This document shows, piece by piece, positions 44,734-64,000 of a stretch of DNA of 64,000 nt. The stretch is from the NCBI RefSeq assembly GCF_024298965.1, contig NZ_CP085193.1, positions 620,001-684,000 of the forward strand. The letters are read 5' to 3'. Each line of letters begins with the position of its first letter. Position 1 is the stretch's first letter. The notes under the pieces are model-generated. The model worked only from the letters and a program-made list of their open reading frames with translations. It had not been told where the DNA came from and searched no databases. The position numbers were made by a program, and so were the translations under genes. The stretch comes from Streptomyces rapamycinicus NRRL 5491. GTDB taxonomy: Bacteria; Actinomycetota; Actinomycetes; Streptomycetales; Streptomycetaceae.

Positions 44734-44752
44734 GGTCGGTGGTCCCTCCGGC

Positions 44753-46047: not shown

Positions 46048-46155
46048 TCAGCGGCGACAGAGCGCGCCCGCGACGCGCAGCAGGTCGATGTGGTGCCGGG
46101 AGTACAGGTGGACGCCCCGGCCCAGGGCCGGAGTCGGCGCGGGCGGGCTGGTCAT
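46048..46155 (-). CDS. Putative sulfur-regulon leader peptide upstream of the LLM operon
   Basis: 35 residues (40 if ATG 46170 is used, which follows a GGGAGG). It ends YSRHHIDLLRVAGALCRR, an almost ideal match to the actinobacterial leader consensus (RxHIDLLRVxxALC). A single Cys codon lies three codons before the stop. It sits 77 bases upstream of the first LLM monooxygenase gene of the minus-strand operon. Confidence 0.85.
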   Translation of the reverse strand: MTSPPAPTPALGRGVHLYSRHHIDLLRVAGALCRR

Positions 46156-46363
46156 CGGCCGCGACACCATCGCCTCCCGTTCCCGTTCCCGACGGGCCTT
46201 CGGGCCCTGGCTGATATCTCGGAACGCTACGTGAGGCCGGTGACCTCACGCAATCGTGAACTCGGACGGGGTCGCGGCATATTCCCCGACGTCCATGGGT
46301 AACCCGACAAAAGTGCGGGCGACCCCGCTGACGCGCTCCACCCCGACGACGGGATCGGTGGAG

Positions 46364-46516
46364 ATGTCCCGGACTGACGGCACGTGGGCACGGGCCCGTC
46401 GGCATTCGCGCCCGACGCACCCGCTCCGGCCTCGCCCCCTGACCAGGCGGCTGCACATCGACCTGCTGCGGATCTCCAGTTCCTACCGCCCAGCGGGCCT
46501 TCAGAGCACCCTCTGA
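46364..46516 (+). pseudogene. Degenerate leader peptide on the plus strand
   Basis: 50 codons that include PLTRRLHIDLLRISSSYR, the leader-peptide core, but the expected Cys is replaced by Tyr and the frame reads on seven codons past it to its stop. No plus-strand gene follows; the next genes face the other way. It looks like the control element of an operon that was lost or inverted. The rest of 46171-46547 holds no other supported gene. Confidence 0.55.
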
Positions 46517-46547
46517 TCGCCACCGTTCGGAGGGCGCGGCCATCGCC

Positions 46548-47108: not shown

Positions 47109-48457
47109 CGGACCGGGGCCTGGGCGTGCCCGAGGCCGAGGTGATCGCGCAGAGTGGTGCCGTGGTACTCCGAGCGGAACACCCCGCGTTCCTGGAGTTC
47201 GGGAATCACGGTGTCGACGAACTCGTCCAGTCCGGTGGGGGTGAGGTGCCCGGAGACGATGAACCCGTCGCAGGCGTCGCTCTGCACATGGGTGTTGATC
47301 TCTTCGGCCACCTGCGCCGGTGTGCCGACGAAGGCGTGGCGGCCCGTCACCTCGATGACCAGGTCGCGGATGCTCAGCTGCTTCGCCACGGCGACCTGAC
47401 GCCAGTGGCGTGCCACCGCGAGGGGGTCGCGGTGGTGACGTGCCCGGCCGCGGGTGACACCGGCGGCGTCGGCCAGTGGTTCGACGTCGGGCAGCGGTCC
47501 GTCGGGGTCGTAGCCGGACAGGTCGCGTCCCCATACCTGTTCGAGCTGCGCGATCGCTCCCTGCGGGGAAACCTGCTGGAGGCGGATGTGGCGGGCGCGC
47601 TCGCGTGCCTCCTCCTGGGTGTCACCCAGCACGAAGGTGGCCTGGGGCAGGATCTTCAGATCTCCGGGAGCACGGCCGTACGCGGCGAGCCGGCCCTTGA
47701 CGTCGGCGTAGAAGGCCTGACCCATCGCCAGTTCGGCGTGGATGGTGTAGATCGCGTCGGCGGTCGCGGCGGCGAACTCCCGGCCGTCGCCGGAGTTTCC
47801 GGCCTGGATCAGCACCGGGTGGCGCTGGGGGCCGTGCGGCACCGTCGGACGCGCGGCGATGTCGAACTGCGGGCCCCGGTGGCGAACCTCGGCGATGGCC
47901 CCGTCCTTGACGAAGAGCCCGGCGGCGGGGTCGGCGACCACCGCGTCCGGGGTCCAGGCGTCCCACAGCTCGCGGGCGACCTCGACGAACTCCGCGGCGC
48001 GGGTGTACCGGTCGGCGTGGTCCAGGAAGCCGCCGCGGCGGAAGTTCGCGCCGGTGAAGGCGTCCGAGGAGGTGACCACGTTCCATGCGGCGCGCCCGCC
48101 GGAGAGGTGGTCAAGCGTCGCGAACTGCCGGGCGAGTTCAAAGGGTTCGTTGAACGTGGCGTTGACGGTCCCGGCCAGGCCGACGCGGTCGGTGACGGCC
48201 GCCAGCGCGCTCAGCACGGGCAGGGTGTCGGGTCTGCCGACCACGTCCAGATCGAAGATCTCCCCGCGGTGCTCGCGCAGCCGGAGCCCCTCGGCGAGGA
48301 AGAAGAAGTCGAACTTTCCGCGCTCGGCGGTCCGCGCGAGATGGCGGAAGGAGGAGAAGTCGATCTGACTGCCCGAGCGTGGATCGCTCCAGACGGTGTG
48401 GCTGTTCACCCCGGGGAAGGCCGCCCCGAGGTGTACCTGCTTGGCGGGTTCGCTCAT
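47105..48457 (-). CDS. NtaA/SnaA/DszA-type FMN-dependent monooxygenase, second paralogue
   Basis: 450 residues from ATG 48457. Matches the 43357-44733 protein block for block: AFPGVNSHTVWSDPRSGSQI, FDFFFLAEGLRLREHRGEIF, FATLDHLSGGRAAWNVVTSS, HPVLIQAGNSGDGREFAAAT, SEYHGTTLRDHLGLGHA. It therefore arose by duplication within the region and may act on a different organosulfur compound. It is coupled by ATGA to the downstream acetyltransferase. The 170 bases upstream, to the other acetyltransferase, show no leader peptide that I can support. Confidence 0.88.
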   Translation of the reverse strand: MSEPAKQVHLGAAFPGVNSHTVWSDPRSGSQIDFSSFRHLARTAERGKFDFFFLAEGLRLREHRGEIFDLDVVGRPDTLPVLSALAAVTDRVGLAGTVNATFNEPFELARQFATLDHLSGGRAAWNVVTSSDAFTGANFRRGGFLDHADRYTRAAEFVEVARELWDAWTPDAVVADPAAGLFVKDGAIAEVRHRGPQFDIAARPTVPHGPQRHPVLIQAGNSGDGREFAAATADAIYTIHAELAMGQAFYADVKGRLAAYGRAPGDLKILPQATFVLGDTQEEARERARHIRLQQVSPQGAIAQLEQVWGRDLSGYDPDGPLPDVEPLADAAGVTRGRARHHRDPLAVARHWRQVAVAKQLSIRDLVIEVTGRHAFVGTPAQVAEEINTHVQSDACDGFIVSGHLTPTGLDEFVDTVIPELQERGVFRSEYHGTTLRDHLGLGHAQAPVR

Positions 48458-48628
48458 GCCGGACTCCCGGTGATGACGAGACGGAGAGCGCGCGCGGCGG
48501 GCGCGGGCGTGGCCGTCGATGGTGAACGAGCCGGTGCCGACGAGGCCGAGGCGCGGGGTCCCGAGCCGGTGGGGGCACATCGGGCCAGGAGCCGCGGGGC
48601 GGTCAGGACGGCGGCGAGACGCCGGGGG

Positions 48629-49198: not shown

Positions 49199-49728
49199 GG
49201 TGGTTTCCTCATGGGAGGCGTGGGGCTCCTCGGAGCCGACGCAGACAAGTTGACGCGCCGTCATGCCTCATGGCGCACGGGAGTGCGGCCTCTTACGGGC
49301 AGACGGATCACACGCGAAGAAACAGCTGGGATAAGGCGCCCCGGCGGGCAGCCGTCAATGCCTCAACAACACTGCGCGCTCACCACTCGACCGAGGTCGA
49401 CGTGGTGGCGGGACACCAGAAGCGTGGAGGCCATGGGCGTCACCCAACACCGGCGTTCGTGTGCTGGTCAAGCGGCGACCAGCATACGGAACGGCACCCG
49501 GCGGCCGGGCACACCGCGCATCTCACCATGCGGTCCGCTGTTGACCTCGGCGGACGGCGTGTGAGCGTCCCATCCCATGTCGCGGACTCTTCTCTGCACG
49601 CGCCGCCGCACGGTCGATCACATGGTGATCACCAGCGCCGCCTGTTTCTCTCACTGACCTCATTCCCGCTCGGGGCCGGCCCGCCTCCTTCCTTCGGCGC
49701 GCCCGCCCGCGGCCACCGCTCGGTCGTC
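49199..49728 (+). other. 530-base gap with eroded control sequence
   Basis: No intact gene is visible. A plus-strand ATG at 49358 opens MPQQHCALTTRP, like the start of a sulfur leader peptide. The next codons fit the usual EVDxV core only in the following frame, as if one base changed. A bare LLM C-terminus starts at 49729, so this stretch probably held the leader and first two-thirds of a lost monooxygenase gene. Confidence 0.35.
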
Positions 49729-49980
49729 GGCACCCAGGAACGGATCGCGGACGACATCACCGGCTGGTGGTCGGCCGGTCTGGTGGACGGCTTCACCCTG
49801 CTGCCCGACGCGCTGCCCGACGGCCTGGACACCTTCGTCGACCACGTCGTGCCGATCCTGCGGAAACGCGGCGTCTTCCGCCACGGCTACACGGGCACCA
49901 CCCTCCGCGACCACCTGGGGCTCCCCGTACCGGCGTCGTCCTACGAGCCCTCCGGGCAGAAGGGGGCCACGGCCCGATGA
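49729..49980 (+). pseudogene. C-terminal fragment of an NtaA-type monooxygenase
   Basis: 84 codons: GTQERIADDITGWWSAGLVD, GFTLLPDALPDGLDTFVDHV, VPILRKRGVFRHGYTGTTLR and DHLGLPVPAS match the C-termini of both NtaA-like paralogues in this window (for example RGVFRTEYEGTTLRDHLGL). Everything N-terminal is missing and the upstream frame is nonsense. It is a third family copy, reduced to a scrap, on the opposite strand from the intact ones. Confidence 0.8.
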
Positions 49981-51071
49981 ACACCACCACGGCCCGTCGG
50001 GCCGTCTCGGTACGGGATTGTCCTCGACCGCGTACCGGAGCTGACCGCCTCCCTCCCCGCCGACACGGCGCGCCGCGAGGCCGAGCGGGAGCTGCCGTAC
50101 GGGTCCAATGTGGCACAGGCGCTCCGGCCGCACTTCGGGTTCGTCGAGAAGCTCATCAGCGACAGTGGGAAGGAGGACCGCGAGCGGTGGTTCGCGGCGG
50201 CGCTGGCGGGCGAGCTCTTCGGCAACGCCACCGGGGAGGCCACCGCCAAGCACCCCGGCGACATCCACACCGCGCTGGTGCCCGACGGCGACCGCTACCG
50301 GCTGAGCGGCACGAAGTACCACAGCACCGGCAGCCTGTTCGCCGACTGGGTGGTCATCGCCGCGAAGGACCACCTCGACCGGCGGGTCCGCGTGGTGCTC
50401 CCCCGCGGCCGCCCCGGGCTTCGGCTGATCGACGACTGGGACGGCATGGGCCAGCGCATGACGGCGAGCGGCACCACGGAGCTGGACGACGTGGCGGTGC
50501 ACCCGCACGAGGTGGTCGTGGACGAGGCCGTGGGGGTGCGCCGGACCCATCTCGGCGCGTACCACCAGCTCTTCCTCGCCGCCGTGGAGACCGGCATCGC
50601 CAAGAACGCGGTGCGCGACGCGGTAGGCTACGCCCGCGACCGGGTCCGCGCGGTCCGCCACAGCGGCGTCGACCACGCGGTCCAGGACCCGTTCGTGCAG
50701 CACACCGTGGGCGAGATGGCGGCGCTCGGGTACGGGGCCGAGGCCACCGTGGAGCGCGCGGCCGCGGCCATCGACCGCGCTCTCGCCGGCCCCACGGCGA
50801 GGACGGTGTGGCGGGCGGTGAACCGGCGCTCGCCGAGGCGGCCACCGAGGTGGCGCAGGCGCAGGTGGTGGCCGCCCAGGCGGCCCTGCGGGCGGCGGAG
50901 CGGCTGTACGACGTGGGCGGGGCCTCGGCCACCCGGCGCGAGTTCAACTTCGACCGCCACTGGCGCAACGCGCGCACCCTGGTCAGCCACAATCCGATCG
51001 CCCACAAGGCACGTGTGGTGGGCGACTACCTCCTCAACGCCGAACCCCCGCCGCTGACGGGGTTCTTCTGA
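49979..51071 (+). pseudogene. SfnB/DszC-like acyl-CoA dehydrogenase-fold monooxygenase with two frameshifts
   Basis: The gene starts at ATG 49979 (MNTTTARRAVSVR), changes frame near 50010-50022, continues IVLDRVPELTASLPADTARR, PHFGFVEKLISDSGKEDRER, LSGTKYHSTGSLFADWVVIA, VQDPFVQHTVGEMAALGYGA, then changes frame again near 50805-50825 to EPALAEAATEVAQAQVVAAQ and ends LTGFF at 51071. Intact homologues use FMNH2 to oxidise dimethylsulfone or dibenzothiophene. Each switch needs one base. Its ATG overlaps the stop of the monooxygenase scrap, showing the former operon order. Confidence 0.75.
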
Positions 51072-51102
51072 CGATGTCCAAGAGAAGGAAGACACTGAAG
51101 AC

Positions 51103-51851
51103 ATGACCACGTACCGCACCCTCGGCCGTACCGGCGTGAAGGTCAGCCCCCTGACGCTCGGCGCGATGAACTTCGGCGCCTGGGCCAACCGTGACCACGA
51201 CGACGCCGTCCAGATCATTCACCGGGCCCTCGACGCGGGCATCAACGTCATCGACACCGCCGATGTGTACTCCCAGGGCGAGAACGAGGAGATCGTCGGC
51301 AAGGCGCTGGCGGCCGGCCGCCGCAACGAGGTGTTCCTCGCGACCAAGTTCCACGGCCAGCCCGGGCGGCGGAGCGGGCGGTGCTGCCCGTCGCCGAGCG
51401 GTACGGACTGGGTGTCCTGCCGTGGAGCCCGCTGGCCGGTGGCTGGCTGTCCGGTCGCTACCGCAAGGGGGACACGGCACACCCCGTGTCCAGCCGTCTG
51501 GAGCGCCAGCCGCACCGGCACGACCCGGAGCTGGCCGCCAACAAGCGCAAGCGGGAGGCGGCGGAGCAGCTCGCCGAGCTGGCCGACGAGGCGGGCCTGT
51601 CGCTGATCCACCTGTCGCTGGCGTTCGTGCTGGAGCACCCGGCCGTCTCGACGGTGATCATCGGCCCGCGCACCCAGGAGCACCTGACGAGCCAGCTCGG
51701 CGCCGTCGACGTCCGTCTCTCGCGGGACGTGCTCGACCGGATCGACGAGATCGTGCCGCCCGGCACCACGATCAGCCCGGCCGACGAGGGCTACCAGCCG
51801 CCGTCGCTCACCGACCCGGCCGCCCGCCGCCGCCCGGCCGTGCGCGACTGA
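51103..51851 (+). pseudogene. Aldo/keto reductase with an internal deletion
   Basis: The first 84 codons are normal ([46 protein letters not shown] with the catalytic Lys). At about 51365 the sequence jumps to [20 protein letters not shown] in another frame and continues to QPPSLTDP and the stop. About 120 residues, including the catalytic His and barrel strands 4-6, are gone. The deletion changes the frame, so this cannot be a simple base-call error. The 31-base gap after the SfnB-like gene fits the same dead operon. Confidence 0.75.
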
Positions 51852-51959
51852 CGCGGACCGCCGACCAGGGCTCAGCTCAGGAGCTCAGGAGGTGACCGGA
51901 GGCGCGCGGTGCGCACGCGACCACCTCCTTGCCGACGTTCTCGGCCGTCAGCCGGTGTC

Positions 51960-52716
51960 CTAGCGCTCGTTGGCCACGTCCACGCCCAGCCGGGCGAGCA
52001 GTCGCTCGCGCAGCGCGGCGTACTCGGCACCCGCGGGGCGGCGCGGCGCCGGAACCTCCACGGCGAGGTCGGCGGCGATCCGGCCCCCGTCCAGGACCAC
52101 GATCCGGTCGGCGAGCGCGATGGCCTCGTCCACGTCGTGCGTGACCGGCAGCACGGCGGGACGGTGCCGTTCGTACAGGCGGGCCAGAAGTGCGTGCATA
52201 CGGGTCCTGGTGAGCGCGTCGAGCGCGCCGAACGGCTCGTCCGCGAGCAGCAGTTCGGGCTCGCGCACCAGGGAGCGGACCAGCGAGACCCGCTGCTGTT
52301 CGCCGCCCGACAGCTCCACCGGCCGGGCGTCCTCCCGCCCGGCCAGGCCCACCTCGGCGAGCGCGGTGCGTGCCCGCTCCTCGGCGTCCCCGCCCGTGAG
52401 CCCCAGTGCCACATTGGCCAGCACCCGTTTCCACGGCAGGAGCCTGGCGTCCTGGAAGACGACCGACACATGGGCGGGCGCGCTCAGTACGCCTTCGCCA
52501 CCGGCGTCGTGGTCGACTCCGGCGAGCGCCCGCAGCACGGTGCTCTTGCCGGAGCCACTGCGGCCGAGCATGGCCACGAACTCCCCGGCGCGCAGGCTCA
52601 GTTCGAGCCCGTCCAGCACCTTGCGCCCCGCCGAAGTCAAGTACGAGCCCTTCGATGCGGACGGCCGTCCCGGCCTCCGGGGCGGTGGCCGTCAGCCCGC
52701 CAGTGTGCGTCGCCAT
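51960..52716 (-). pseudogene. ssuB: SsuB-like sulfonate ABC transporter ATPase with a frameshift
   Basis: ATG 52716 with GGAAGG upstream opens MATHTGG and runs to RIEGLVLDFGG. The rest (KVLDGLELSLRAGEFVAMLG, Walker A GRSGSGKST, Q-loop VVFQDARLLPW, signature ELSGGEQQRVSLVRSL, Walker B LLLADEPFGALD, VTHDVDEAIALADRI) is in another frame ending at 51960. Removing one G from the run at about 52640-52645 joins them. No SsuA or SsuC gene is adjacent, so the importer is incomplete even apart from the frameshift. Confidence 0.75.
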
Positions 52717-52821
52717 GACAGGACCTTCCTCTCCACGAGCGGCCACCTCACGGGTGCCGCGCGGGCCGGGGCTCCTCCGCCGTCGCGGGGCCGGGCCCCG
52801 GGGTGGCCCGGCCGCGCCCGG

Positions 52822-53742
52822 TCAGTCGGCGGCCAGTCCGGTCCGCCAGCTGGGTATCGAGGGCTTCCAGTCGAGCGCCTGGCGTATGCGGTCGTTGGAC
52901 GCGCCGCGCATGGCGGTCAGCTGGTGGGCGGTGAGCCAGCCCAGCAGCCGCTCGGCCAGTGGCGCCGGCACCGTACGGGGCGGGAGCCCTCCGAGCAGCC
53001 GGGCGTACTCGGGCAGCCAGACCGCGGCCTCCGCCGGGTCGTCGTCGGCCACGTTGAACACACCGTCGGCATCCGCCTCGACGGCACGGACCGCGGCCCG
53101 TGCGGCGTCCTCGACATGGAGGAACGAGGTGACGCCGGTGGCGGACTCGGGCAGTGGCAGCCTGCCGCGCGCCACCGCGCCGCGGATCGCGCCGTCCCGG
53201 TGGTAGAGCGTGCCCGGCCCGTACAGGGTCCCGTGGCGCAGCACGATGCCGGAGAGGTTCGCGGCGCCCAGTACCCGGCGCTCCAGTTCGCTGATCGCGC
53301 GGGCGGTGAGCGCCCAGCCCGGATCCGGTGCGTCGACATGGAGCGGCGCGTCCTCGGTGAGCACCGGCCCGCCGCGGGGGGCCGTGGCGAACGCGATGCT
53401 CTGGGCCACCATCCGTCGTGCTCCCGCCGCCTCGGCGGCGGCGATCAGATGCGCGGTGCCTTCGGTGCGCAGCCGGGCGGTGCGCTCCAGGCCCTCCGCG
53501 GTGGGCCCGCGCAGCGCGGTCAGCTGATGCACCACCACCTCGGGCCGGGCCGAGACCACCGCCGCGCGCACCGCCTCGGGGTCCAGTGCGTCGGCCACCA
53601 CGACGCCGTCCAGGCCCGGCCCGGCCGCCCCGGACACCTCACGTACCAGCGCGGTCACATGGTGGCCGCGGGCGCTGAGCAGCGGGACCAGCGCCCGGCC
53701 GATCACACCGGTGGCCCCGGCGACGAGGACCCGTGCCGTCAT
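52822..53742 (-). CDS. NAD-dependent epimerase/dehydratase-type reductase in the biosynthetic cluster
   Basis: 306 residues from ATG 53742, which overlaps the stop of the V4R-like gene by 4 bases. Nucleotide site VLVAGATGVIGRALVPLL, VVVHQLTALRG, GIVLRHGTLYGPGT, SFLHVEDAARA, GVFNVADDDPAE. The classical YxxxK is not clear in the central part. It may reduce a keto group of the cluster product or an aldehyde. It is the last gene of the biosynthetic operon before the dead sulfonate genes. Confidence 0.83.
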   Translation of the reverse strand: MTARVLVAGATGVIGRALVPLLSARGHHVTALVREVSGAAGPGLDGVVVADALDPEAVRAAVVSARPEVVVHQLTALRGPTAEGLERTARLRTEGTAHLIAAAEAAGARRMVAQSIAFATAPRGGPVLTEDAPLHVDAPDPGWALTARAISELERRVLGAANLSGIVLRHGTLYGPGTLYHRDGAIRGAVARGRLPLPESATGVTSFLHVEDAARAAVRAVEADADGVFNVADDDPAEAAVWLPEYARLLGGLPPRTVPAPLAERLLGWLTAHQLTAMRGASNDRIRQALDWKPSIPSWRTGLAAD

Positions 53743-54326
53743 GCCGCACCTCCCCCGGCTCGCATCAGCAGTCGGCAGGCGGGATCGCCGTCCCGCAGAC
53801 ACGCGGTGGCACAGTTACGGGTGAGTTCGACCCCGAGCCCCTCCGACCAGCCGGCGTGGATGTCGGTGCACGGGCACTCGTAGCCGTCGAGCGAACCGGC
53901 CATCCGGACCATGGTCACGGCGAAGTTCTGCCGCATGGTCAGCTCGATATCGCCGTCCGGGAGCACCGCGGTCCCCCCGTCGCGCAGTTCGTTCGGGAAC
54001 ATCCACTCGGAGCAGGCGTCGTACCGGCGGCGGAGTTCCTCGAGGTCGGCGGCCGGTTTTCCGCCGAACTGACGGCGGATCCGCTTGCCCACCTGGACGG
54101 CCACATACCGCAGCGCCTCGGCGTTGATCTCATTCGCCACGTCGTGTCCGAACCTCTTCGCCACGCCCTGGTACCAGCGCGCGTCGTGCAGCCACCACTG
54201 CCGGTACACGTCCATGGTCCTCGGGCGGGGGCCCGTGCCGGGGCTCGTGCCAGGGCTCGTGCCGGAGCCCGTGCCGGAGCCCGTGCCGGGGCTCGTGCCG
54301 GGGCTCGTATGGTCGAGCGCGGTCAT
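53739..54326 (-). CDS. Cys-rich V4R/ATC-hydrolase-like protein
   Basis: 195 residues. The first 30 are a Gly/Thr/Ser/Pro repeat. The folded part starts YRQWWLHDARWYQGVAKRFG and ends with two Cys clusters: YECPCTDIHAGWSEG and RNCATACLRDGDPACRLLM. The final GDPxC pattern resembles V4R and L-2-amino-thiazoline-4-carboxylate hydrolase families, which bind a ligand or metal by such Cys residues. The assignment is tentative. It is overlapped by 4 bases on both sides by the ligase and reductase genes, so it belongs to the pathway and could carry out a cyclisation or hydrolysis step. Confidence 0.5.
   Translation of the reverse strand: MTALDHTSPGTSPGTGSGTGSGTSPGTSPGTGPRPRTMDVYRQWWLHDARWYQGVAKRFGHDVANEINAEALRYVAVQVGKRIRRQFGGKPAADLEELRRRYDACSEWMFPNELRDGGTAVLPDGDIELTMRQNFAVTMVRMAGSLDGYECPCTDIHAGWSEGLGVELTRNCATACLRDGDPACRLLMRAGGGAA
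54227..54309 (-). repeat. 12-base tandem repeat in the V4R-like gene
   Basis: About seven copies of a 12-base unit of form GTGCCGGGGCTC/GTGCCGGAGCCC. They encode alternating SPGT and GSGT units at the N-terminus of the protein, a flexible linker. Copy number could vary between strains. Confidence 0.8.
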
Positions 54327-56029
54327 CGCACCTTCCCGTCCAGTTCGCCGTCGGCCACCCGGGCCCGGAACCGCTCGCGCATCTCCCGCTTGAGCACCTT
54401 GCCGGTGGCTCCCTTCACCACCTCGCTCGCGTCCATCCGGAGCGCACCGGTCAGCTGCGGGAAGCCTTCGGCGGCCAGCACCCGGTTGACGTCGGCCGTC
54501 CACCGGGCGTCGTCCCTGTCCGCGTCCCCCACGTCCGCCGCGTCCGCGCGCACCTGCAGCAGGGCGTAGGCGTCGGCGGTCCCGTCGCCGTCCCAGTCCG
54601 CGCTCACGCCCTCGGGCGCGACCGCCACCACCGTGCAGTCCTCGAGCCCGGGCAGCTCGCGCAGCAGCAACTCCTCGGTGCGGGTGCTGAACACGATGCC
54701 CGCGGCGGTGCGGATCGCGTCCGGCACGCGGTCCAGGTGGTAGAAGTTTCCCTCCTCGTCCCGGTAGGACAGATCACCGGTGAGCCAGTAGCCACCGAGC
54801 CGCAGCCGGTGGAAGGTCAGCGAGTCGTTCCAGTATCCGGGGGTGAGCGTGGGTGAGCGCACACCGAGGCGGCCGACCTCGCCGGGCGGCAGCGGTGTGC
54901 CGTCCTCGGAGAGCACCGCCGCCTCGGCGAAACTCATCGGTTTGCCGACGCAGCGGGAGAACGACGACTTGCCGGGCCGGTGTCCGTTGTGGAAGAGCGA
55001 GTAGCCGGTCTCGGAGGAGCCGAGTCCGTCGGTGAAGACGGATCCGGAGACCCGGCGGCGCTTCAGGTCCCGGCCGACCGTGTCATGGCTGCCCTGCTCG
55101 ATCAGCGCCCTGATATGGGTCTCGTGCGCCGCGTCCCCGGTGTTGTACCACGCCTCCACGCTGGACAGATCGCGCACGGAGAGATCCTGGGCGGCCATCT
55201 CCCCGTAGGTTCCGGCGAACGCGAACACCGTGGTGGGGCGGAACGACTCCATGGCGTCCAGGACGTCGACCCCTCGCTGGCTGGACAGCATGCGGACGGG
55301 CGAGCGCAGCAGGAAGCCGAACAACATGACCGAGATGGCTGCGTTGTGCGAGCCGGGCAGCGCGACCAGCAGCCTGCCCATCGCGGAGCCGACGGACAGC
55401 TTCAGCCGGTGCAACTGCGCGTACAGCAGGGTTTCGTGGGTGTGCGGTACGGCCTTGGGCATACCGGTGGTGCCCGAGGAGTGGGAGATGATGATCGGGT
55501 CGGTGGCGTGGTGGGCGTACGGGTAGCCCGTGGGGAGGGCTTCGCGGTGCTCAGCGCGGATGTCGGCCGCCGTGACGCAGAAGCCGAGGCCCAGTTCGGC
55601 CCGGTCGCGGGCCAGGACCGCGTGGTGGGCCTGGTCGGTGATGGCGCCGACCGCGCCCTGGCGCCGTACGTACTCGCGGGCGATCTCCGGGCGGAGGTTG
55701 CCGTTGACGAAGGAGGGGATCGCGCCGAGGGAGGTGAGGGCGAGGAAGTTGATGGCGAACTCGGTGCTGGACCAGGTCTGGATTGCCACCGGGTCACGGG
55801 GCCCGACACCCTGAGCGTGGTACCAGCTCGCGTAGATCTCCACGGCCTCGTGCAGCTCGCCCAGGGTCAGTACCTCGGGGTGGCCGCCGTCCGGGGCCTG
55901 CCAGGTGGCGTCGGTCCACAGGACCTGCTCGTCGAACGATCTGCCGTACGCCTTCAGCCGGTGGATCACGTTCCCGGCCCCCAGGGCGGCGTCCTCGCTG
56001 ATCCGCGCGCGTTCCTGCTTGGTGATCAT
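54323..56029 (-). CDS. AMP-dependent acyl ligase of the biosynthetic cluster
   Basis: 568 residues. P-loop ISHSSGTTGMPKAVPHTHE, GLGSSETGYSLF, YWLTGDLSYRDEEGNFYHLD, and the catalytic Lys region VVKGATGKVLKREMRE. The N-terminal part (LKAYGRSFDEQVLWTDATW) is not that of standard acyl-CoA synthetases. It should adenylate a carboxylic acid and pass it to CoA, a carrier protein or an amine. A GGTAGGA ribosome site is intact. The IS110 element lies directly upstream and separates it from the rest of the operon, so its expression may be altered. Confidence 0.86.
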   Translation of the reverse strand: MITKQERARISEDAALGAGNVIHRLKAYGRSFDEQVLWTDATWQAPDGGHPEVLTLGELHEAVEIYASWYHAQGVGPRDPVAIQTWSSTEFAINFLALTSLGAIPSFVNGNLRPEIAREYVRRQGAVGAITDQAHHAVLARDRAELGLGFCVTAADIRAEHREALPTGYPYAHHATDPIIISHSSGTTGMPKAVPHTHETLLYAQLHRLKLSVGSAMGRLLVALPGSHNAAISVMLFGFLLRSPVRMLSSQRGVDVLDAMESFRPTTVFAFAGTYGEMAAQDLSVRDLSSVEAWYNTGDAAHETHIRALIEQGSHDTVGRDLKRRRVSGSVFTDGLGSSETGYSLFHNGHRPGKSSFSRCVGKPMSFAEAAVLSEDGTPLPPGEVGRLGVRSPTLTPGYWNDSLTFHRLRLGGYWLTGDLSYRDEEGNFYHLDRVPDAIRTAAGIVFSTRTEELLLRELPGLEDCTVVAVAPEGVSADWDGDGTADAYALLQVRADAADVGDADRDDARWTADVNRVLAAEGFPQLTGALRMDASEVVKGATGKVLKREMRERFRARVADGELDGKVR

Positions 56030-56045
56030 GGTGTGGTCCTACCTT

Positions 56046-57482
56046 TCAGATGTGGGTCTGACCTGGTCGTTCGTAAGATCGGAGGGCCCAGGGGTTCTGG
56101 GTATGGCTGGCATGGTGGAGACCGTTCGATGGCTCGAGGAACTTGGCCGCCCGGAGCCCCGCGACGACTCGACCGCCAATTGGGAGATGCGACTCCGATC
56201 GCTGCTGTAGGACAACGTCGGCGAGGTCGTCGGTGGGATCGATGTACGACGAGCTGGCGGAGGGGAACGTGCCCGAGATCTGGGCCGGAGTGGACATCGG
56301 CAAGACCCATCACCATGCGGTGGTGATCAACGCGGAGGGCAAGCGTCTGCTGTCCCGCCGAGTCCAGAACGACGAGACCGAGCTCCTCGCTCTGATCGGC
56401 GACGTCCTGGAGATATCGCGGGATGTGCTGTGGGCGGTGGATCTCAACCATGGTGGTGCCGCGCTGCTGATCGGCCTGCTGATCAGCCACGGCCAGCCGG
56501 TCGCCTACCTCACCGGCCTGGCGGTCCACCGTGCTTCCGCCACCTACCGCGGCGAGGGCAAGACGGACGCGAAGGACGCCTTCGTCATCGCCGACCAGGC
56601 TCGCGTTCGCCGTGACCTCGGCCTGCTGAGGCCCGGCGACGAGATCGCCGTCGACCTGCGCACCCTGACTACCCGTCGTCTGGACGCAGTCTTCGACCGC
56701 ACTCGCCAGATCAACCGCCTGCGTGCCCAACTCCTGGAGATCTTCCCTGCGTTGGAGCGGTCCTTGGAGCTGACGAACCACGGTCCGGTGGTGCTGCTGA
56801 CCGGCTTCCAGACCCCGGCGGCGATCCGTCGTGCGGGCGTGAACCGGATCGAGACGTGGCTTAAGAACCGCAGGGTCCGAGGTGCCGCCGCACTGGCGAA
56901 GACGGTGGTGGAGGCCGCCCAGGCTCAGCACACCGCGCTCCCCGGCGAGAAGCTGGCCGCTGCCATGGTGGTCCGCCTCGCGAAGGGGGTGATGGCCCTC
57001 GACGAGGAGATCTCCGAGCTCAACGCCCTCATCGAGGGCCGGTTTCGCGAGCATCCGCACGCCGAGGTGATCCGCAGCCTGCCCGGCATGGGGACCAAGC
57101 TCGCCGCAGAGTTCATCGCCGCGACCGGCGGCGACATGGACGCCTTCGCCAGCTCCGACCGCCTGGCCGGCTTCGCCGGCCTGGCCCCCAGGCCCCGCGA
57201 CTCCGGCCGCGTCAGCGGCAACATGCGCAGACCCCGGCGCTATCACCGCGGGCTGCTGAGAACTATGTACCTGTCCGCGATGGTCAGCCTTCGATGCTGC
57301 CCCGCCTCCAAGGCGTACTACGACCGGAAGCGGAACGAGGGCAAGGGGCACAAGCAGGCGCTGCTGGCCCTCGCGCGCCGACGCCTCAACGTTCTGTGGG
57401 CGATGATCCGTGACGGAGAGTGCTTTCACGCTTCACCTCCCGTCACGGGAGCAGCTTGACAACATGATTGGGAAGTTCCTTG
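56046..57482 (+). mobile_element. IS110-family insertion element
   Basis: Contains one intact transposase gene plus about 195 bases left of it and 23 right. Ends are estimated: the left one from the intact ribosome site of the ligase gene, the right one from the point where the chain-length-factor-like frame loses homology. No inverted terminal repeats are visible, as usual for IS110. It interrupts the end of the chain-length-factor-like gene and splits the biosynthetic operon. Confidence 0.7.
56242..57459 (+). CDS. IS110-family transposase
   Basis: 405 residues from ATG 56242. The N-terminal RuvC-like DEDD domain is seen in IWAGVDIGKTHHHAVVINAE, LTGLAVHRASATYRGEGKTD and AKDAFVIADQAR. The C-terminal transposase_20 domain has VIRSLPGMGTKLAAEFIAAT, LAGFAGLAPRPRDSG and a Ser region in RVSGNMRRPRRYHRGLLRTM. 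No frameshift or stop is visible, so the element may be active or recent. IS110 enzymes use a bridge RNA from the element's non-coding end; the region left of the gene is the place to look. Confidence 0.93.
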   Translation: MYDELAEGNVPEIWAGVDIGKTHHHAVVINAEGKRLLSRRVQNDETELLALIGDVLEISRDVLWAVDLNHGGAALLIGLLISHGQPVAYLTGLAVHRASATYRGEGKTDAKDAFVIADQARVRRDLGLLRPGDEIAVDLRTLTTRRLDAVFDRTRQINRLRAQLLEIFPALERSLELTNHGPVVLLTGFQTPAAIRRAGVNRIETWLKNRRVRGAAALAKTVVEAAQAQHTALPGEKLAAAMVVRLAKGVMALDEEISELNALIEGRFREHPHAEVIRSLPGMGTKLAAEFIAATGGDMDAFASSDRLAGFAGLAPRPRDSGRVSGNMRRPRRYHRGLLRTMYLSAMVSLRCCPASKAYYDRKRNEGKGHKQALLALARRRLNVLWAMIRDGECFHASPPVTGAA

Positions 57483-58067
57483 GATTCGGGCGGCCAGCTC
57501 GACCAGGCCGCGAAGGGTGCCGTACTCCCCCGAGGGGGTGGGCGGGATGTCGGACGGCGGGCGCGGGAGGGGATCGTCCCGGTCCAGCACGAGGGCCACG
57601 GCCAGGTCCGCGGCGGGCGGGCCGGTACGAAGCTCGCGGTACGCCGCCGTGGTGCGCTCGGAGCCGGTCAGCTCGACCCCGATCAGCACGACGCGGTCCA
57701 GCTCCTCGTCCTCCAGCAGCAGTTCCGCGGCGGCCAGCAGCTCATCGGCCGGGTCCGCCACGGTGGACAGGCAGAGCAGCGGCCCGGTGATGGCGAACTC
57801 CCGGCTGAGCCGGCCCAGGACCGCGTTGGCGGTGGACTGCATGAACAACAGCGGATTGTGCACCTGCCCGGCCACCAGCAGACGGCTGCCGAGGTCGAGG
57901 GTGGCGGCGTCCCCCATCGTGCTGGCCAGGGCCATGGCGGTACGGGCGCCGTCGCCCGGCCGGGCGGTCAGGCACCGCTCGACGGCCTGGTACACCATCG
58001 GGTTGAAGGCGGACTCCACGAAACCGGCGACCGGCGGCGCGGAGGGGCCGGACATCGCGGCGATCAT
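57426..58067 (-). CDS. Short chain-length-factor-like ketosynthase partner, 3' end altered by IS110
   Basis: 213 residues. VAGFVESAFNPMVYQAVERC, TAMALASTMGDAATLDLGSR, HNPLLFMQSTANAVLGRLSR and LCLSTVADPADELLAAAELL resemble the short N-terminal-type beta-ketoacyl synthase partner (PF13723) of aryl polyene systems. No catalytic Cys is seen at the expected place (QSTANAV). Up to LRGLVELAARI the sequence is native; the last 18 residues (starting QGTSQSCCQ) come from the IS end. The ATG overlaps the ketosynthase stop by 4 bases. It should pair with that ketosynthase to set chain length, if the tail change is tolerated. Confidence 0.7.
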   Translation of the reverse strand: MIAAMSGPSAPPVAGFVESAFNPMVYQAVERCLTARPGDGARTAMALASTMGDAATLDLGSRLLVAGQVHNPLLFMQSTANAVLGRLSREFAITGPLLCLSTVADPADELLAAAELLLEDEELDRVVLIGVELTGSERTTAAYRELRTGPPAADLAVALVLDRDDPLPRPPSDIPPTPSGEYGTLRGLVELAARIQGTSQSCCQAAPVTGGEA

Positions 58068-59275
58068 GCTCGCTCCAGTACCAGCGCGGTGTTGGCGCCG
58101 CCGAACGCGGCGTTGACGGTGAGGGCACGCCGGAGCTCGGCCTTGTGGGGGCGGTTGGGCACATAGTCGAGGTCGCAGTGCGGATCCGGTTCGGTGAACC
58201 CGGCGGTGGGCGGCAGCACCCCGTCCCGCAGCGCGAGCAGGGTGATCACGAGTTCCACGACTCCGGACGCCTCCAGCAGATGTCCGGTGGTGCTCTTCGT
58301 CGAGCTCACCGGCGTCCGGGCGGCCGCCGCGCCGAAGAGCGTGCGCAAGCCCCGGGTCTCGGCGGGGTCGTTGTACCGGGTGGCGGTGCCATGCGCGTTC
58401 ACATAGTCGATCCGCGGGCCGCCCGCACGCCGCAGGGCCCGGCCGGCGGCCATGGCCAGCCCGGCGCCTTCCGGATGGGGCCGGGCGACGTGGTGGGCGT
58501 CGCCCGCGGCGCCCCAGCCGGTCAGCGCGCCGAGCGCACGCGCTCCCCGGCGCCGGGCGCTCTCGGCGGATTCGAGCACGACGGCGCCGGCTCCGTCCCC
58601 GAGTAGCAGACCGCTGCGGTCGGCGCAGAACGGACGCACCATCCCGTCCCGGGAAAGGGCGAATCCCGAGTCGAACTTGGCCAGGTTCTCCTCCTCCACC
58701 AGATACGCCCCGGCGCAGATCGCGGTGTCGGCCCAGCCGGAGGCGATGAGCCGGCAGGCGTGCGTGATCGCGGTGGCAGAGGCGACGCACGCGCTGGTGA
58801 ACGCCAGCCGGGGGCCGCGCAGGCCGAGGGTGTCCGCGAGGGTCTCGGCCTGCCACGCGGGCACGGTCTCCGCGGCGCCGCCGGAGTCCACCGCGCCGGG
58901 AGAGCCGGAAGACCCGGGAGAGCCGGAAGACTCAGAAGAGCCGGCAGCGCCAGGTGCGCCGGGTGCGTGCGCGGCGCGCCAGAAGCGGGTCAGACCGGTG
59001 AAGTCACCCGCGGTCCCCACCAGGACGGCGGCCTCGGCACCCGTCGGCAGCCCCGCCATGGCGACCGCCGCCCCGGCGACCTCGGCCAGCACCTCCCGCA
59101 GCGGAGCGGCCGGGCCGCCGGTGGCGGCCAGGCCCGTTCGGTACGGGCCGGTGTCGAAGCGGGTGATCGGTGCGAAGGCGGGCCGCCCGTCGAACACGCC
59201 CTCCCGCACGGCGTCCGCCCCGGTGCCGAAGGCCGTGCGCACCCCGAACCCGGTCAGCAGCACCTCACGGTCCAT
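58064..59275 (-). CDS. Beta-ketoacyl synthase (FabF-type, type II PKS)
   Basis: 403 residues with the full triad: Cys in FTSACVASATAITHACR, His in YVNAHGTATRYND, His in SSTKSTTGHLLEASG. Other landmarks: MDREVLLTGFGVRTAFGTG and LTVNAAFGGANTALVLERA. A Ser/Gly/Pro repeat of about 25 residues is inserted near residue 115. It condenses a malonyl-carrier extender with a starter. Its order (two carrier proteins, ketosynthase, short partner) is that of a small type II PKS. It overlaps the second carrier-protein gene by 11 bases. Confidence 0.9.
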   Translation of the reverse strand: MDREVLLTGFGVRTAFGTGADAVREGVFDGRPAFAPITRFDTGPYRTGLAATGGPAAPLREVLAEVAGAAVAMAGLPTGAEAAVLVGTAGDFTGLTRFWRAAHAPGAPGAAGSSESSGSPGSSGSPGAVDSGGAAETVPAWQAETLADTLGLRGPRLAFTSACVASATAITHACRLIASGWADTAICAGAYLVEEENLAKFDSGFALSRDGMVRPFCADRSGLLLGDGAGAVVLESAESARRRGARALGALTGWGAAGDAHHVARPHPEGAGLAMAAGRALRRAGGPRIDYVNAHGTATRYNDPAETRGLRTLFGAAAARTPVSSTKSTTGHLLEASGVVELVITLLALRDGVLPPTAGFTEPDPHCDLDYVPNRPHKAELRRALTVNAAFGGANTALVLERA

Positions 59276-59528
59276 GAACGCCCGCCAGGTAGTCGGTGAT
59301 CCGGCGGATCGAGGTGAATTCGGCGAGGAACGCGTCGGCCGGCTCGATCTCCAGGCCGTAGCGCAGCTCCAGTTGGTGCAGGAACCACACCAGCCCCAAC
59401 GAGTCCAGGGCGAGTTCGGCGTCGTCGTCCAGGCCGGGTGGCAGATCGGCGAAGATCTTGGGGTCGGACAGCAGTTCCCGGACGGCGTCGGTGGTGATCC
59501 TCGGCCGGGCTTCGGATTCCGCGGTCAT
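59265..59528 (-). CDS. Acyl carrier protein
   Basis: 87 residues. The phosphopantetheine attachment Ser is in LALDSLGLVWFLHQLE, the usual DSL motif. DDDAELALDSLGL and FTSIRRITDYLAG are helix II and IV landmarks. It is one of two adjacent carriers with different sequences (the other has DIDSLGLIEL), so they may hold starter and extender separately. It overlaps the other carrier gene by 4 bases and the ketosynthase by 11. Confidence 0.9.
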   Translation of the reverse strand: MTAESEARPRITTDAVRELLSDPKIFADLPPGLDDDAELALDSLGLVWFLHQLELRYGLEIEPADAFLAEFTSIRRITDYLAGVHGP

Positions 59529-59803
59529 GCCGTGGCGCCCCGCTCCACGACATCGTTGATCAGGTCGCCCAGGTTCATCGCGCCGGCCTGCTCGATGTCG
59601 CTGTCGGGGAACTTCACATCGAACCGGCGCTCCAGGCGCAGGAGCAGTTCGATCAGGCCCAGTGAGTCGATGTCGATTCCACCGGTGCCCATGGGGCTGT
59701 CATCGCTGATCTCGTCCGCGGCGAGCGGATGGTTCATCTCCTCGCTGATCGTGCTGAGCACGAAATCGCGGATCTCCTTCTGCAAGGCCGTCTGCGTCTC
59801 CAT
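59525..59803 (-). CDS. Acyl carrier protein
   Basis: 92 residues from ATG 59803 with AAAGG nine bases upstream. METQTALQKEIRDFVLSTIS, attachment Ser in GGIDIDSLGLIELLLRLE, MNLGDLINDVVERG. It is closer to classical FabC/AcpP than its neighbour. Position directly after the adenylating ligase gene suggests it could receive the activated aminohydroxybenzoate. Confidence 0.9.
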   Translation of the reverse strand: METQTALQKEIRDFVLSTISEEMNHPLAADEISDDSPMGTGGIDIDSLGLIELLLRLERRFDVKFPDSDIEQAGAMNLGDLINDVVERGATA

Positions 59804-59869
59804 GGTGCGCAACCTTTCTGTGCCACAGGGGGTCGATGCGGGGTGGTCGGCAAGGGGCGGTCAGCCGGG

Positions 59870-61255
59870 TCAGCGGTCGGGAGCGCGGGCGAGCAGGGCT
59901 TCGCGGCGCCTGACCAGCTTGCCGTTGGAGGTGCGGGGCAGATCCGCCAGGACGTGCACGACGCGGGGCACCTTGTAGTCGGCCAGCCGGTCCCGGCACC
60001 AGCGCAGCAACTCCCCCGCCGAGGGGCCGTCCGCCGCGGCCGAGACATAGGCTTCGGTGGCACCGGCGTGCACGACCACGGCCCCGCTGACCCCGGGGTG
60101 GCGGCGCAGTACGGCCTCCACCTCGGTCAGGTCGACCTTGAGGCCGCCGATGACCACCAGGGAGTCGCCACGGCCCAGCAGCCGTACGGCGCCGGAGGGA
60201 TCGAGCTCGGCCCGGTCATGGGTGCGCAGCCAGCCGTCGGCGAACCGGTCGCCGCCGGAAGCGTGCAGATACGGTGAGCCGTCCGGCAGCCGGACGTCCA
60301 GTTCGCCCTCGTGGATCCTCAAGAGCACACCGGGCGCCGCCGGGCCGACCGAGGGCCTCGAGGCGCCGCTCACCTCCATCGCGATGACGCCCGTCTCGGT
60401 GGTCCCGTACGACTCGCCGACCCCGGTGCCGAACCGTTCGGCAAACCGCGCGGCGGTCTGCGGCGGCATGATCTCCCCACCGGAGACCGCCGCGCGCAGC
60501 GCGGGCAGGGCGGGCAGGTCCCGGGCGGTGCTCAGGAGTTCGTAGTGGAACGGGGTACCGAAGATCACGTGGACGTCGTGGCGCGCGGCGGCGCCGAGGA
60601 TGTCCTTGGCCGACACCCGTGGCGCGAAGACCGCCGAGACGCCCGCGGCGAGGGAGTGCAGCACCCCGGCGATCAGGCCGAAACTGTGCGCGGTCGAGCT
60701 CAGCAGCAGCACCCGCTCGCCCAGGACCGGCATCCCCTCGATCCGGGTGAACCGCTCGATCTCGGCCGACAGGGAGGCCGCGGTCCGCCCGATCACCTTG
60801 GGCAGCCCGGTGGAACCCGAGCTGAACTGCACCAGCCGGTGCCCGGTCGTCGCCGGTCGGCCGTCCGGGTACCGGGAGGTGACCACCTCGTACCTGGGCT
60901 CGAACTTGAGCGGTGAGCGGCCCGCCGTACCCGCGGCGACCAGGAACTGCGGGTGGCACAGCGAGCGCAGGGCGTCCACTTCGGACGGTTTGAGCCGGTG
61001 GTCGACCAGCATCACCTGGGCGCCCAGCCGCCACAGCGCGAGCAGCACCTCTATCTGGGTGCAGCTCGGCGGGCTCTGGAGCATCACCGTATGCCCCTCG
61101 CCGATGCCGTGCCCGGCGAAGACCGCCGCCTCCATGTCCACGGCGGCCCGGACCTCGCCACGGCTCACCGGATGGTCGCCGTGGACGAGGTAGGGCAGCT
61201 CGTCGGGATGGGCGTCGAACAGCGTGTCGAGGAGCTCCCGCATCCGTGCGCTCAT
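59870..61255 (-). CDS. AMP-dependent ligase, probable 3-amino-4-hydroxybenzoate-activating enzyme
   Basis: 461 residues, shorter than usual. P-loop VQFSSGSTGLPKVIGRTAAS, AVSGGEIMPPQTAARF, SYGTTETGVIAMEV, LLGRGDSLVVIGGLKVDLTE and the catalytic Lys near the end in LPRTSNGKLVRRREAL. Its ATG shares bases with the stop of the GriH-like gene (TGATG). Direct coupling to the two aminohydroxybenzoate-forming enzymes suggests it activates that acid and loads a carrier protein (inference). Confidence 0.87.
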   Translation of the reverse strand: MSARMRELLDTLFDAHPDELPYLVHGDHPVSRGEVRAAVDMEAAVFAGHGIGEGHTVMLQSPPSCTQIEVLLALWRLGAQVMLVDHRLKPSEVDALRSLCHPQFLVAAGTAGRSPLKFEPRYEVVTSRYPDGRPATTGHRLVQFSSGSTGLPKVIGRTAASLSAEIERFTRIEGMPVLGERVLLLSSTAHSFGLIAGVLHSLAAGVSAVFAPRVSAKDILGAAARHDVHVIFGTPFHYELLSTARDLPALPALRAAVSGGEIMPPQTAARFAERFGTGVGESYGTTETGVIAMEVSGASRPSVGPAAPGVLLRIHEGELDVRLPDGSPYLHASGGDRFADGWLRTHDRAELDPSGAVRLLGRGDSLVVIGGLKVDLTEVEAVLRRHPGVSGAVVVHAGATEAYVSAAADGPSAGELLRWCRDRLADYKVPRVVHVLADLPRTSNGKLVRRREALLARAPDR

Positions 61256-62292
61256 CAGTGTTCCTTGCAGAACTCGCCGATGGGGAAGCCCACATGACGC
61301 TGGTCCGTGGCCAGGTAGCCGAGCAGCTCGTCGCCGCGGCGCAGCTCGGTGACGTTGTGGACCTTGCCGCCGGGCCCGAGCACCCGCACATGCCAGTCGT
61401 CCTGGACGGTCAGGCTCACCACGGTGTCGTCGGCGGCCCGCGCGGTGATGGTCAGCAGCGGACGGGACTCCAGCTTGGCCCGGCCGACCGTGACCGGCCG
61501 GGTCCGGCCCTCGGAGTTGACGGCCAGGGTCGTGCTGCCCGAGCCCAGCTCGCTCAGGTAGTTGGTCCGGTTCTCCGGGCCGAGCACATAGGAGTGCAGG
61601 GCGCCGGCGTTGACCCGGAACGGGCGGGTCGGCATGTACGGCAGCGGATGGGTCTCGCTGCAGCACAGGATGAAGCCGGTCGAGTACGAGCCGACCAGGA
61701 TGCCCTCGTCCTCGGCGAAGTGGGTGCAGGTGTCCACGCACACCCGGTCGCCGAGCCCGTGGTGCTCGATGCCGTCGACGGTCAGCGTGGTCAGCTCCAG
61801 CGGGGAGGTTCCGGCCTCCAGCAGCCGGGCCAGCGCGAACACCTCACCGGCGTCGGAGGGCGCCAACAGGACTCCGTCCGAGCCGCGTTCGAGCACGTCC
61901 AGCACGGTGGCGGCCTCGTCCAGGTCCGCGCAGACGGTGATCAGCTTTCCGGCGGAGCGGTCCGCGGCGGCGAGCACGATCTCCAGGGGGATCTTGGTCG
62001 GGTCGGCGAAGCGGACCACGGTGTGGGGCAGCGCGACCGCCGCCGCGCACGCCAGCCGCAGCGACGGTTCGTCGTGCACATCGACCCAGGCCGCGTCGGC
62101 GTCGAGGTTGTACAGCTGCTTCTCCTCGGTCACCGCCGCGGTGGTGACGGCGGTGACGGTGGGGGGCAGCGCCTTGAGGACGGATTCGTCATCGCAGAGC
62201 ACGCCCTGCATCCGGGTGTGGATGGCGGCGTCCACGACGGACTCGAGCCGGGCCTGCGGAACGGTGCGGAGGTCGATCCATGCGAACTTCAT
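61255..62292 (-). CDS. griH: 3-Amino-4-hydroxybenzoate synthase (GriH-like, dehydroquinate synthase II family)
   Basis: 345 residues. [11 protein letters not shown] at the N-terminus, then DGVLLAPSDAGEVFALARLL, GLGDRVCVDTCTHFAEDEGI, LVGSYSTGFILCCSETHPLP, RPFRVNAGALHSYVLGPENR and TNYLSELGSGSTTLAVNSEG are characteristic of the archaeal-type dehydroquinate synthase II family. In S. griseus GriH closes a C7 precursor to 3-amino-4-hydroxybenzoate. The adjacent GriI-like gene, overlapped by 4 bases, supports this over shikimate synthesis, since Streptomyces already use the ordinary route. Confidence 0.9.
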   Translation of the reverse strand: MKFAWIDLRTVPQARLESVVDAAIHTRMQGVLCDDESVLKALPPTVTAVTTAAVTEEKQLYNLDADAAWVDVHDEPSLRLACAAAVALPHTVVRFADPTKIPLEIVLAAADRSAGKLITVCADLDEAATVLDVLERGSDGVLLAPSDAGEVFALARLLEAGTSPLELTTLTVDGIEHHGLGDRVCVDTCTHFAEDEGILVGSYSTGFILCCSETHPLPYMPTRPFRVNAGALHSYVLGPENRTNYLSELGSGSTTLAVNSEGRTRPVTVGRAKLESRPLLTITARAADDTVVSLTVQDDWHVRVLGPGGKVHNVTELRRGDELLGYLATDQRHVGFPIGEFCKEH

Positions 62293-63095
62293 GCGGCTCC
62301 TGTCGCGATCGTCGAGGGGTGGGGGGTCGTTCCGGCTTCGGCGGCGTGCACCACGGCGGCGAGCCGTGCCACCAGCGAGGAGGGTGAGGGCGAGGAGAAG
62401 ATCCGGCGGCCCACCGCGAGGCCCCGGCAGCCCGCGAGCATCAATGACGTCCCATGGCTGACCAGGTCCGAGCCGTCGGGCGGGCCACCGGCGGCGAGGA
62501 TCGGCAGCGGACAGCTGTTCACCACCTCGGCCATCCGCTCCATCGGCAGGGCGACCGAGGTCTTCACGAGGTCGGCGCCGAGATCCGCGGCGATGTTGAC
62601 GGCATGGGCGAGCAGCGCCGGGTCGTGCGGATCGGCGATCCGCGGCCCCCTCGGGTAGATCATCGCGAGCAGCGGCATGTTCCAGAGGTCGCACGAGGCC
62701 GCGACGGTCCCGAGGTCCTTCAGTTGCCGGTGCTCGGTGTCCGAGCCGAGGTTCACATGCACGCTCACCGCGTCCGCGCCCAGCCGTACGGCCTCTTCCA
62801 CGTCGCCGACGAGCACCTTGGCGTCGGTGTCGGCCGCGTGCACGGTGCCCGCGCTCAAGTGAACCACCAGGGCGCAGTGGCGCAGGATGTCCGGCGCGAT
62901 CGCCCGCGCCCGGCCCTTGTGGACGACGACCGCGTCCGCGCCGCCGTCCACCAGTGCCCGGAGCAGCCCGTTCCAGCGGGCCTGGGACACCACCGGCCCA
63001 TCGGACACACTGTGGTCGAGCGGGACGAAAAGATATCTTCCGTCCCCCGCGACCGAGAGCCTCCGCATCCGGAATGATTTACCAATATCGGTCAT
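62289..63095 (-). CDS. griI: GriI-like aldolase (C7N backbone formation)
   Basis: 268 residues from ATG 63095. Class I aldolase barrel of the DhnA/LsrF group: [87 protein letters not shown] with the Schiff-base Lys in [17 protein letters not shown]. GriI condenses aspartate semialdehyde with dihydroxyacetone phosphate. It leads the biosynthetic operon. Two dyads lie in its divergent promoter. Confidence 0.9.
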
Positions 63096-63296
63096 GTGCC
63101 AGGCACACCTCTCCCAAGGGGGCGAACCACGCAGAGGATTGCGGAGACAGAATGGCACGGCTATGCAATAGCGAGCGGATATCGAATCTCCATAACTCTG
63201 CGGTTATGCGGCTCTGAGGAATTTCTGAGAATGCTCTGACAGGCTGTCCGACGGCTATTCCGCCGGAGCCGAAACCGCGTTTTCCAGGAGGCTGGT
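63096..63296. promoter_or_regulatory. Divergent promoter of the biosynthetic cluster
   Basis: 201 bases, locally less GC-rich than the flanks. Two perfect dyads are visible: GCTAT-3-ATAGC at 63160-63172 and CATAAC-6-GTTATG at 63191-63208. They are placed to control both the GriI operon and the flavodoxin/exporter genes. No regulator gene is visible in the window part of the cluster. Confidence 0.55.
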
Positions 63297-63902
63297 TTGA
63301 CCGCCTTGACCGACCCGGTTCGCATCTCGATCGCCTGTCACGGCGGACGTGGTCACACCGCCAGGCTGGGTGAGGCCGTACGGACCGGCGCCAGCCGGGT
63401 TCCGCACACCGAGGTCACCTCTGTCCAGGTCGACCGGATCACCGATCAGGAATGGCATCGGCTGGACGACGCCGACGCGATCATCTTCGGTGCCCCGACC
63501 TATATGGGCACGGCCTCATCGGCCTTCCACACCTTCGCGGAGGCGAGCGCCAGGCGCTGGCTCACCCGCCGCTGGCAGGACAAACTGGCCGCCGGATTCA
63601 CCAACTCCGGCTCGATGGCCGGGGACAAGGCCGGCACCCTGGGCTATTTCGCCACCTTCGCCGCCCAGCACGGCATGCTCTGGGTCAGCCTCGGCCTGGC
63701 ACCCGGCTGGAACTCCTCCTCCGGCAGCGAGTTCGACCTGAACCGGCTCGGTTTCCACCAGGGCGCCGCCGCGCAGTCCCCCGTGGACGACAGAACGGGG
63801 ACGGTGCACAAATCCGACCTCGCCACCGCGGAACACCTCGGGCACCGGGTCGCGGAGCTCACCCGGACCGTCGTCGCGGGCAGACGAGCGCTGGAGTCGT
63901 GA
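63297..63902 (+). CDS. Flavodoxin-like (WrbA-type) NAD(P)H oxidoreductase
   Basis: 201 residues from TTG 63297, placed five bases after GGAGG. Flavodoxin fold: VRISIACHGGRGHTARLGEAV with an FMN-phosphate loop, AIIFGAPTYMGTASSAFHTF, WQDKLAAGFTNSGSMAGDKA and QHGMLWVSLGLAPGW. It probably reduces a quinone, quinone-imine or nitroso group. Aminohydroxybenzoate derivatives oxidise to quinone imines, so it may protect the cell or take part in tailoring (inference). The exporter gene overlaps its stop by 4 bases. Confidence 0.85.
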   Translation: MTALTDPVRISIACHGGRGHTARLGEAVRTGASRVPHTEVTSVQVDRITDQEWHRLDDADAIIFGAPTYMGTASSAFHTFAEASARRWLTRRWQDKLAAGFTNSGSMAGDKAGTLGYFATFAAQHGMLWVSLGLAPGWNSSSGSEFDLNRLGFHQGAAAQSPVDDRTGTVHKSDLATAEHLGHRVAELTRTVVAGRRALES

Positions 63903-64000
63903 GCCACCGGCCCGCCGCGCCGACCGCGGCCGGGGACGAGGACCGTGCCGTGGCGGCCCCCGCCCGGCAGTGGTGGACCGTGGCCGTGGCGGTCCTGGCG
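63899..64000 (+). CDS. Start of a membrane transporter (probable MFS), partial
   Basis: GTG at 63899 overlaps the flavodoxin-like stop (GTGA). Thirty-four codons are present: a hydrophilic Pro/Ala/Arg head, then RQWWTVAVAVLA, the start of a first membrane helix, and the frame runs off the right edge. The type is a guess from this pattern; it would be the exporter of the cluster product. Confidence 0.5.
   Translation, partial: MSHRPAAPTAAGDEDRAVAAPARQWWTVAVAVLA

Follow-up and report, generated by a model that had tools for sequence, protein, structure and literature searches.

We found that the operon near the right-hand end of the window, the 64,000-nucleotide stretch of DNA analysed here (G000:C1:620001-684000), is very probably a cma-type gene cluster of the ava/cma family (avenalumic and p-coumaric acid). 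The host genome, that of Streptomyces rapamycinicus NRRL 5491 (G000), is 12.47 Mb in one contig. Judged by homology and gene order, on which its expected chemistry is also based, the cluster would be a further member of a kind already described. Two features are particular to this strain: an insertion sequence (IS) lies between A5 and A6, and a nitrosuccinate lyase is not recognised in the genome. Among the papers listed by literature searches, none dealt with the S. rapamycinicus cluster or with the fold of its protein B; the published family is taken below as described in PMC10777205.

Open reading frames and family scans place the genes on the minus strand, from right to left, as I, H, A1 to A5, A6, B and A7, with a plus-strand IS110-type transposase between A5 and A6. 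Every gene named in an earlier sequence-only reading of this DNA was found at its position. I (62289-63095), a GriI/AvaI/CmaI-like aldolase, scores 302.6 bits on NF005556 (cut-off 241), and H (61255-62292), a GriH/AvaH/CmaH-like synthase with PF01959 (E 1.3e-107), scores 498.8 bits on NF002625 (cut-off 375), bearing out by analogy the claim that such enzymes make 3-amino-4-hydroxybenzoate (3,4-AHBA). The adenylating ligase A1 (59870-61255; PF00501 and PF13193) occupies the position of CmaA1 and by homology would load 3,4-AHBA onto A3. Both carriers match PF00550; by position and signature A2 (59525-59803; DSL without the W/H signature) appears to be of the extender (malonyl) type and A3 (59265-59528; DSL with Trp48/His51) of the starter type, the latter residues being spaced as Trp38/His41 of CmaA3 (PMC10777205). 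A4 (58064-59275; PF00109/PF02801) is a FabF-type ketosynthase with the Cys-His-His motifs TSAC, HGTAT and GHLLEASG. A5 (57426-58067) is a short ketosynthase-like putative chain length factor, so assigned with the help of A5 lengths in relatives, and its C-terminal end is altered by the IS. Ketosynthase motifs and carrier signatures are intact. There follow A6 (54323-56029), by family an ATP-dependent diazotase acting on nitrite and an aryl amine; B (53739-54326), a small Cys-rich protein; and A7 (52822-53742), by family an NAD(P)-dependent diazo-to-hydride reductase.

G and F are transcribed divergently from this operon, in agreement with the flavodoxin-like gene and exporter described before. 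The cmaG-like G (63297-63902, plus strand) resembles WrbA-like FMN-dependent oxidoreductases (PF03358, E 6.8e-8; PDB 3d7n, 142.6 bits). The cmaF-like exporter F, classed as MFS by eye and by its similarity to F of the family, begins on the plus strand at about 63899 (start codon chosen by eye), so that the window holds only its start (63899-64000); it continues to L001:15506. A cmaR-like LysR regulator gene, R (L001:15463-16368; family scans), follows outside the window. The idea of one overlapping operon holds for most of the junctions, where adjoining genes overlap by 1-11 bases; it fails at A1/A2, with a gap of 66 bases for the chosen start codon, and at A5/A6, where the IS lies.

Gene order and strand equal those of the published cma table, cmaR-F-G<>I-H-A1-A2-A3-A4-A5-A6-B-A7, minus cmaE and cmaD. 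The assertion that no described cluster has exactly this set is thereby overturned: the p-coumaric acid cluster cma of Kutzneria albida has R, F and G likewise divergent from an identical series of genes, with cmaE/D in addition (PMC10777205), and the supposed new chemistry is struck from the list. The features by which PMC10777205 defines the family are found here: AvaH and AvaI homologues above the cut-offs given above, a KS-CLF pair (A4 and the altered A5), and an A6 diazotase homologue (NF058622, 1112 bits against a cut-off of 975). Those of the cma subtype are found as well, with a cmaG-like gene in the window, a cmaR-like LysR gene beside it, and avaA8 and avaC counted absent; no A8-type gene was seen among the cluster's open reading frames read by eye in the window. 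The ava cluster of Streptomyces sp. RI-77 (avenalumic acid) shares homologues of I, H, A1-A7, B and F, but has a FabG-type A8 and the transporter C and no G, so that the content here follows the cma table at G and R, where ava has avaA8 and avaC. According to PMC10777205, cmaG likewise occurs without avaA8/avaC in most members of four groups that together comprise about 40 clusters. E and D, which mark cma proper, are absent beside A7; this is no bar to family membership, since 72 of the 134 family clusters counted in PMC10777205 lack these nitrite (ANS) genes. The crx, grixazone, bagremycin and ferroverdin clusters share 3,4-AHBA from GriI/GriH-type enzymes; I and H of the window reach 280.8 and 392.8 bits on the exception models for BagB/FevI and BagC/FevH, respectively, short of the 500 and 750 required.

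A non-exhaustive pattern scan retrieved 41 loci with A6, the second ligase of the sequence-only reading. The operon is present in 37 of them, with L007 and L011 showing just a part of it because their contigs are short, indicating that the gene set is not a chance assembly; the other four hold A6 relatives of 36-37% identity without the operon. The nearest relatives, L003 (Streptomyces iranensis), L004, L005 and L038 (S. violaceusniger), with A6 identities of 94-97%, share the complete gene set, R and F included. The A4 and A6 of L038 (S. violaceusniger NBRC 13459) match only partly as single segments, suggesting frame breaks or sequencing errors. A G homologue on the strand opposite to I occurs in 19 of the 37 loci, and tblastn of the fetched stretches found an avaA8-type ketoreductase in none of these 19. 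E and D accompany seven of them and are missing from 12, two of which (L003 and L036) end too soon to judge. F adjoins G in most G-bearing relatives; tblastn did not find it in L015, L018 and L036.

By homology and gene order, on which each step below is modelled, I and H would make 3,4-AHBA, A1 would load it onto A3, and A4/A5 would extend this starter, probably once, using malonyl carried by A2. Ketoreduction is tentatively assigned to G, and completion of 3-aminocoumaric acid to a fatty-acid dehydratase and a thioesterase. A6 would then diazotize the amino group using ATP and nitrite, A7 would exchange N2 for hydride to give p-coumaric acid, and F would export this product under the control of R. 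In PMC10777205, loading of A3 by A1, diazotization by A6 and the kinetics of AvaA7 are experimental results, and the cma cluster gave p-coumarate in a heterologous host. The proposal that the first ligase puts the acid on a carrier for extension is thus supported by analogy with cma.

The role given to the second ligase did not survive. It had been proposed to couple the extended acid with another acid or an amine, and A6 is indeed an adenylate-forming enzyme (PF00501). However, A6 scores 1112 bits on NF058622, the NCBIfam equivalog for AvaA6 (3-aminoavenalumate diazotase), against only 142 bits on the next-best NCBIfam family; its best solved relative, PDB 8ztz (894.5 bits), is probably CmaA6; and the last operon gene, formerly just a reductase, is the matching AvaA7-type partner, scoring 511.5 bits on NF058621 (3-diazoavenalumate denitrifying reductase, diazo to hydride; cut-off 400). 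We therefore regard coupling by A6 as highly improbable, and diazotization by the AvaA6/CmaA6 family as its expected function. A6 passes the cut-off in all seven Kutzneria genomes searched. Sampling 392 Streptomyces genomes evenly across the genus, G000 included, gave 25 with A6 above cut-off; 24 of these have A7 above cut-off, the exception being G187, which has a nitrosuccinate lyase. A7 is absent from the locus in five of the 37 operon loci (L006, L009, L010, L016 and L039). Genome-wide, L006 and L016 show a match below cut-off and L039 one above it elsewhere, while the L009 (S. himastatinicus) and L010 (S. typhae) genomes give no A7 match at E 1e-20; a diazo or amino end product may therefore occur in such strains.

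Chain length is linked to A5 in PMC10777205, which distinguishes three clades of A5, the product of one being unknown, and describes a one-extension product for cma. The earlier suggestion of a PF13723-like partner stands in so far as a short ketosynthase-like gene is present; PF13723 itself found no match in A5 or, at E 0.001, in the genome, and PF00109 matched weakly, below cut-off, although some A5 homologues do carry PF13723. With starts set by script, A5 measures 172-207 aa in all but one of the 19 G-bearing loci (the exception, L016, has 313 aa) and 263-325 aa in 16 loci without G, L007 and L011 aside. A FastTree phylogeny of 38 A5 sequences splits the G-bearing ones, including that of the window, from the ava-type with support 1.000; the A5s of L007 and L011, both from short contigs on which no G is present, likewise group with the G-bearing ones. 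The split is kept (0.999) in a tree of 45 sequences to which seven Kutzneria A5s, cut by script, were added. Among these, L108 is near CmaA5, its neighbouring A6 being 99.5% identical to the 8ztz protein over 200 residues. The window A5 falls on the L108 side against the ava-type A5s, yet in a separate Streptomyces subclade apart from Kutzneria, a further difference from cma, so that its chain length is not certain. A longer chain, whether from two extensions as in avenalumic acid or of some other length, would be compatible with the third clade of unknown product and with the 53% identity of the window A5 to L108 against 50% to the ava-type L022, values by which identity alone hardly separates the A5 types. 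It is nevertheless unlikely in our estimation, as G is present and avaA8 absent, as in the cma subtype, and both trees set the window apart from the ava-type A5s. One extension is the default expectation.

Next, we examined the IS110-type element (about 56041-57474, plus strand; transposase 56218-57459; PF01548 and PF02371), which is antisense to the operon and separates the PKS half from A6-B-A7. DNA common to six relatives extends as far as about 57475 and is picked up again at about 56040, and the 1.4-kb inserted stretch is absent from the A5/A6 site in all six. Compared with L003 and L004, A5 has its last two residues changed and 13 added (213 aa here vs 200 aa), and the A6 start codon and the 11 bases ahead of it are kept beside the IS. 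A polar effect on A6-B-A7 is likely; a scan for the sigma-70 consensus, the only promoter type sought, found no promoter-like site near the IS. Against L003, L004, L005 and L008, dN/dS is below 0.5 for all 11 genes tested (A6 0.19-0.26, A7 0.22-0.31), which gives no sign of decay, and the insertion may be young. Elsewhere the genome has eight or more further full-length copies at 86%, with none identical among 40 scored of 361 candidates. In Lentzea aerocolonigenes (L015:11663-13037), about 1.4 kb lies between A6 and B, where other loci have little or nothing, possibly another insertion.

The source of nitrite when the ANS genes are missing, a point left open for the published family, is sharpened by the present genome. 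No nitrosuccinate lyase above the cut-off of 650 bits was found in G000. Its best match, 536 bits, belongs to an apparent pca operon and scores above the cut-off for pcaB, which identifies it as a pcaB paralogue, and an E-like gene stands alone 7.5 Mb from the cluster (58-60% identity in two pieces). Similar 58-60% matches occur in G001, G002 and G003, and L060:9085-11055 encodes a solitary CmaE-like FAD protein that has no lyase beside it. E- and D-like fragments of 34-50% identity lie side by side in the S. iranensis genome (L074:12348-13750), near a very long open reading frame, and may be a remnant. No narG was found in G000 at E 1e-50; it exceeds its cut-off in four of the seven other genomes of the same search. 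The lyase exceeds its cut-off in seven of 15 genomes; the L019 and L032 genomes, with a match of 624 bits, may have it too, because the L020 genome, whose cluster includes D, scores 627. Among the 25 sampled genomes with A6, 15 have a lyase match of at least 648 bits (14 above cut-off; nine near A6 by coordinates and six elsewhere). In the remaining 10, G000 among them and five of them in 80 to 1010 contigs, the match never exceeds 585 bits; that such low matches are pcaB paralogues was checked in G000 alone.

With no lyase recognised in G000, either the nitrite has an origin other than the ANS pathway or synthesis in this strain halts at the amino acid. The latter reading, in which 3-aminocoumaric acid or its N-acetyl derivative is the end product unless environmental nitrite is met, is a sizeable possibility, though not the one we favour. 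Apart from the missing lyase and narG, it accords with the antisense IS ahead of A6-B-A7 and with the N-acetyl-3-aminocoumarate that the cma host also made (PMC10777205). Against it, A6 and A7 are under purifying selection relative to L003, L004, L005 and L008, genomes likewise without a lyase above cut-off, and all 10 lyase-less genomes of the sample keep A7 above cut-off.

Protein B, whose stimulating role is termed unknown in PMC10777205, has a predicted V4R/TRAPP/H-NOX fold. This prediction agrees with its earlier description as a V4R-like Cys-rich protein and provides a structural lead; Pfam gave that description no support, as V4R (PF02830) matched at E 0.01 none of the 31 B homologues scanned and DUF6125 fell just under cut-off for B. 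A profile comparison with the sensory domains of MopR/PoxR/DmpR and with TRAPP Bet3 reached E 0.18, no better than a control (E 0.11). Unlike these proteins, B stands alone, without an ATPase or DNA-binding part. It is conceivable, though we think it improbable, that the lyase-less clusters form a 'nitrite-gated' branch, yielding aminocoumarate without nitrite and p-coumarate with outside nitrite, in which B would be a stand-alone phenol-binding V4R-fold protein holding a phenolic intermediate for the PKS. The IS would then be a second break separating the two halves.

Further genes of the window were named by eye. The ABC transporter adjoining A7 (51960-52760) is missing about 2.6 kb, the part that contains the binding protein and permease genes in L004, and its ATPase frame also differs at the start. 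Acyl-CoA dehydrogenase-like and aldo/keto reductase-like genes (49700-51860) are fragmentary, the latter being one 348-aa open reading frame in L005. Multiple bacterial-luciferase-like flavin monooxygenase and acetyltransferase-like genes (44002-48580) are partly conserved in L004 and L005.
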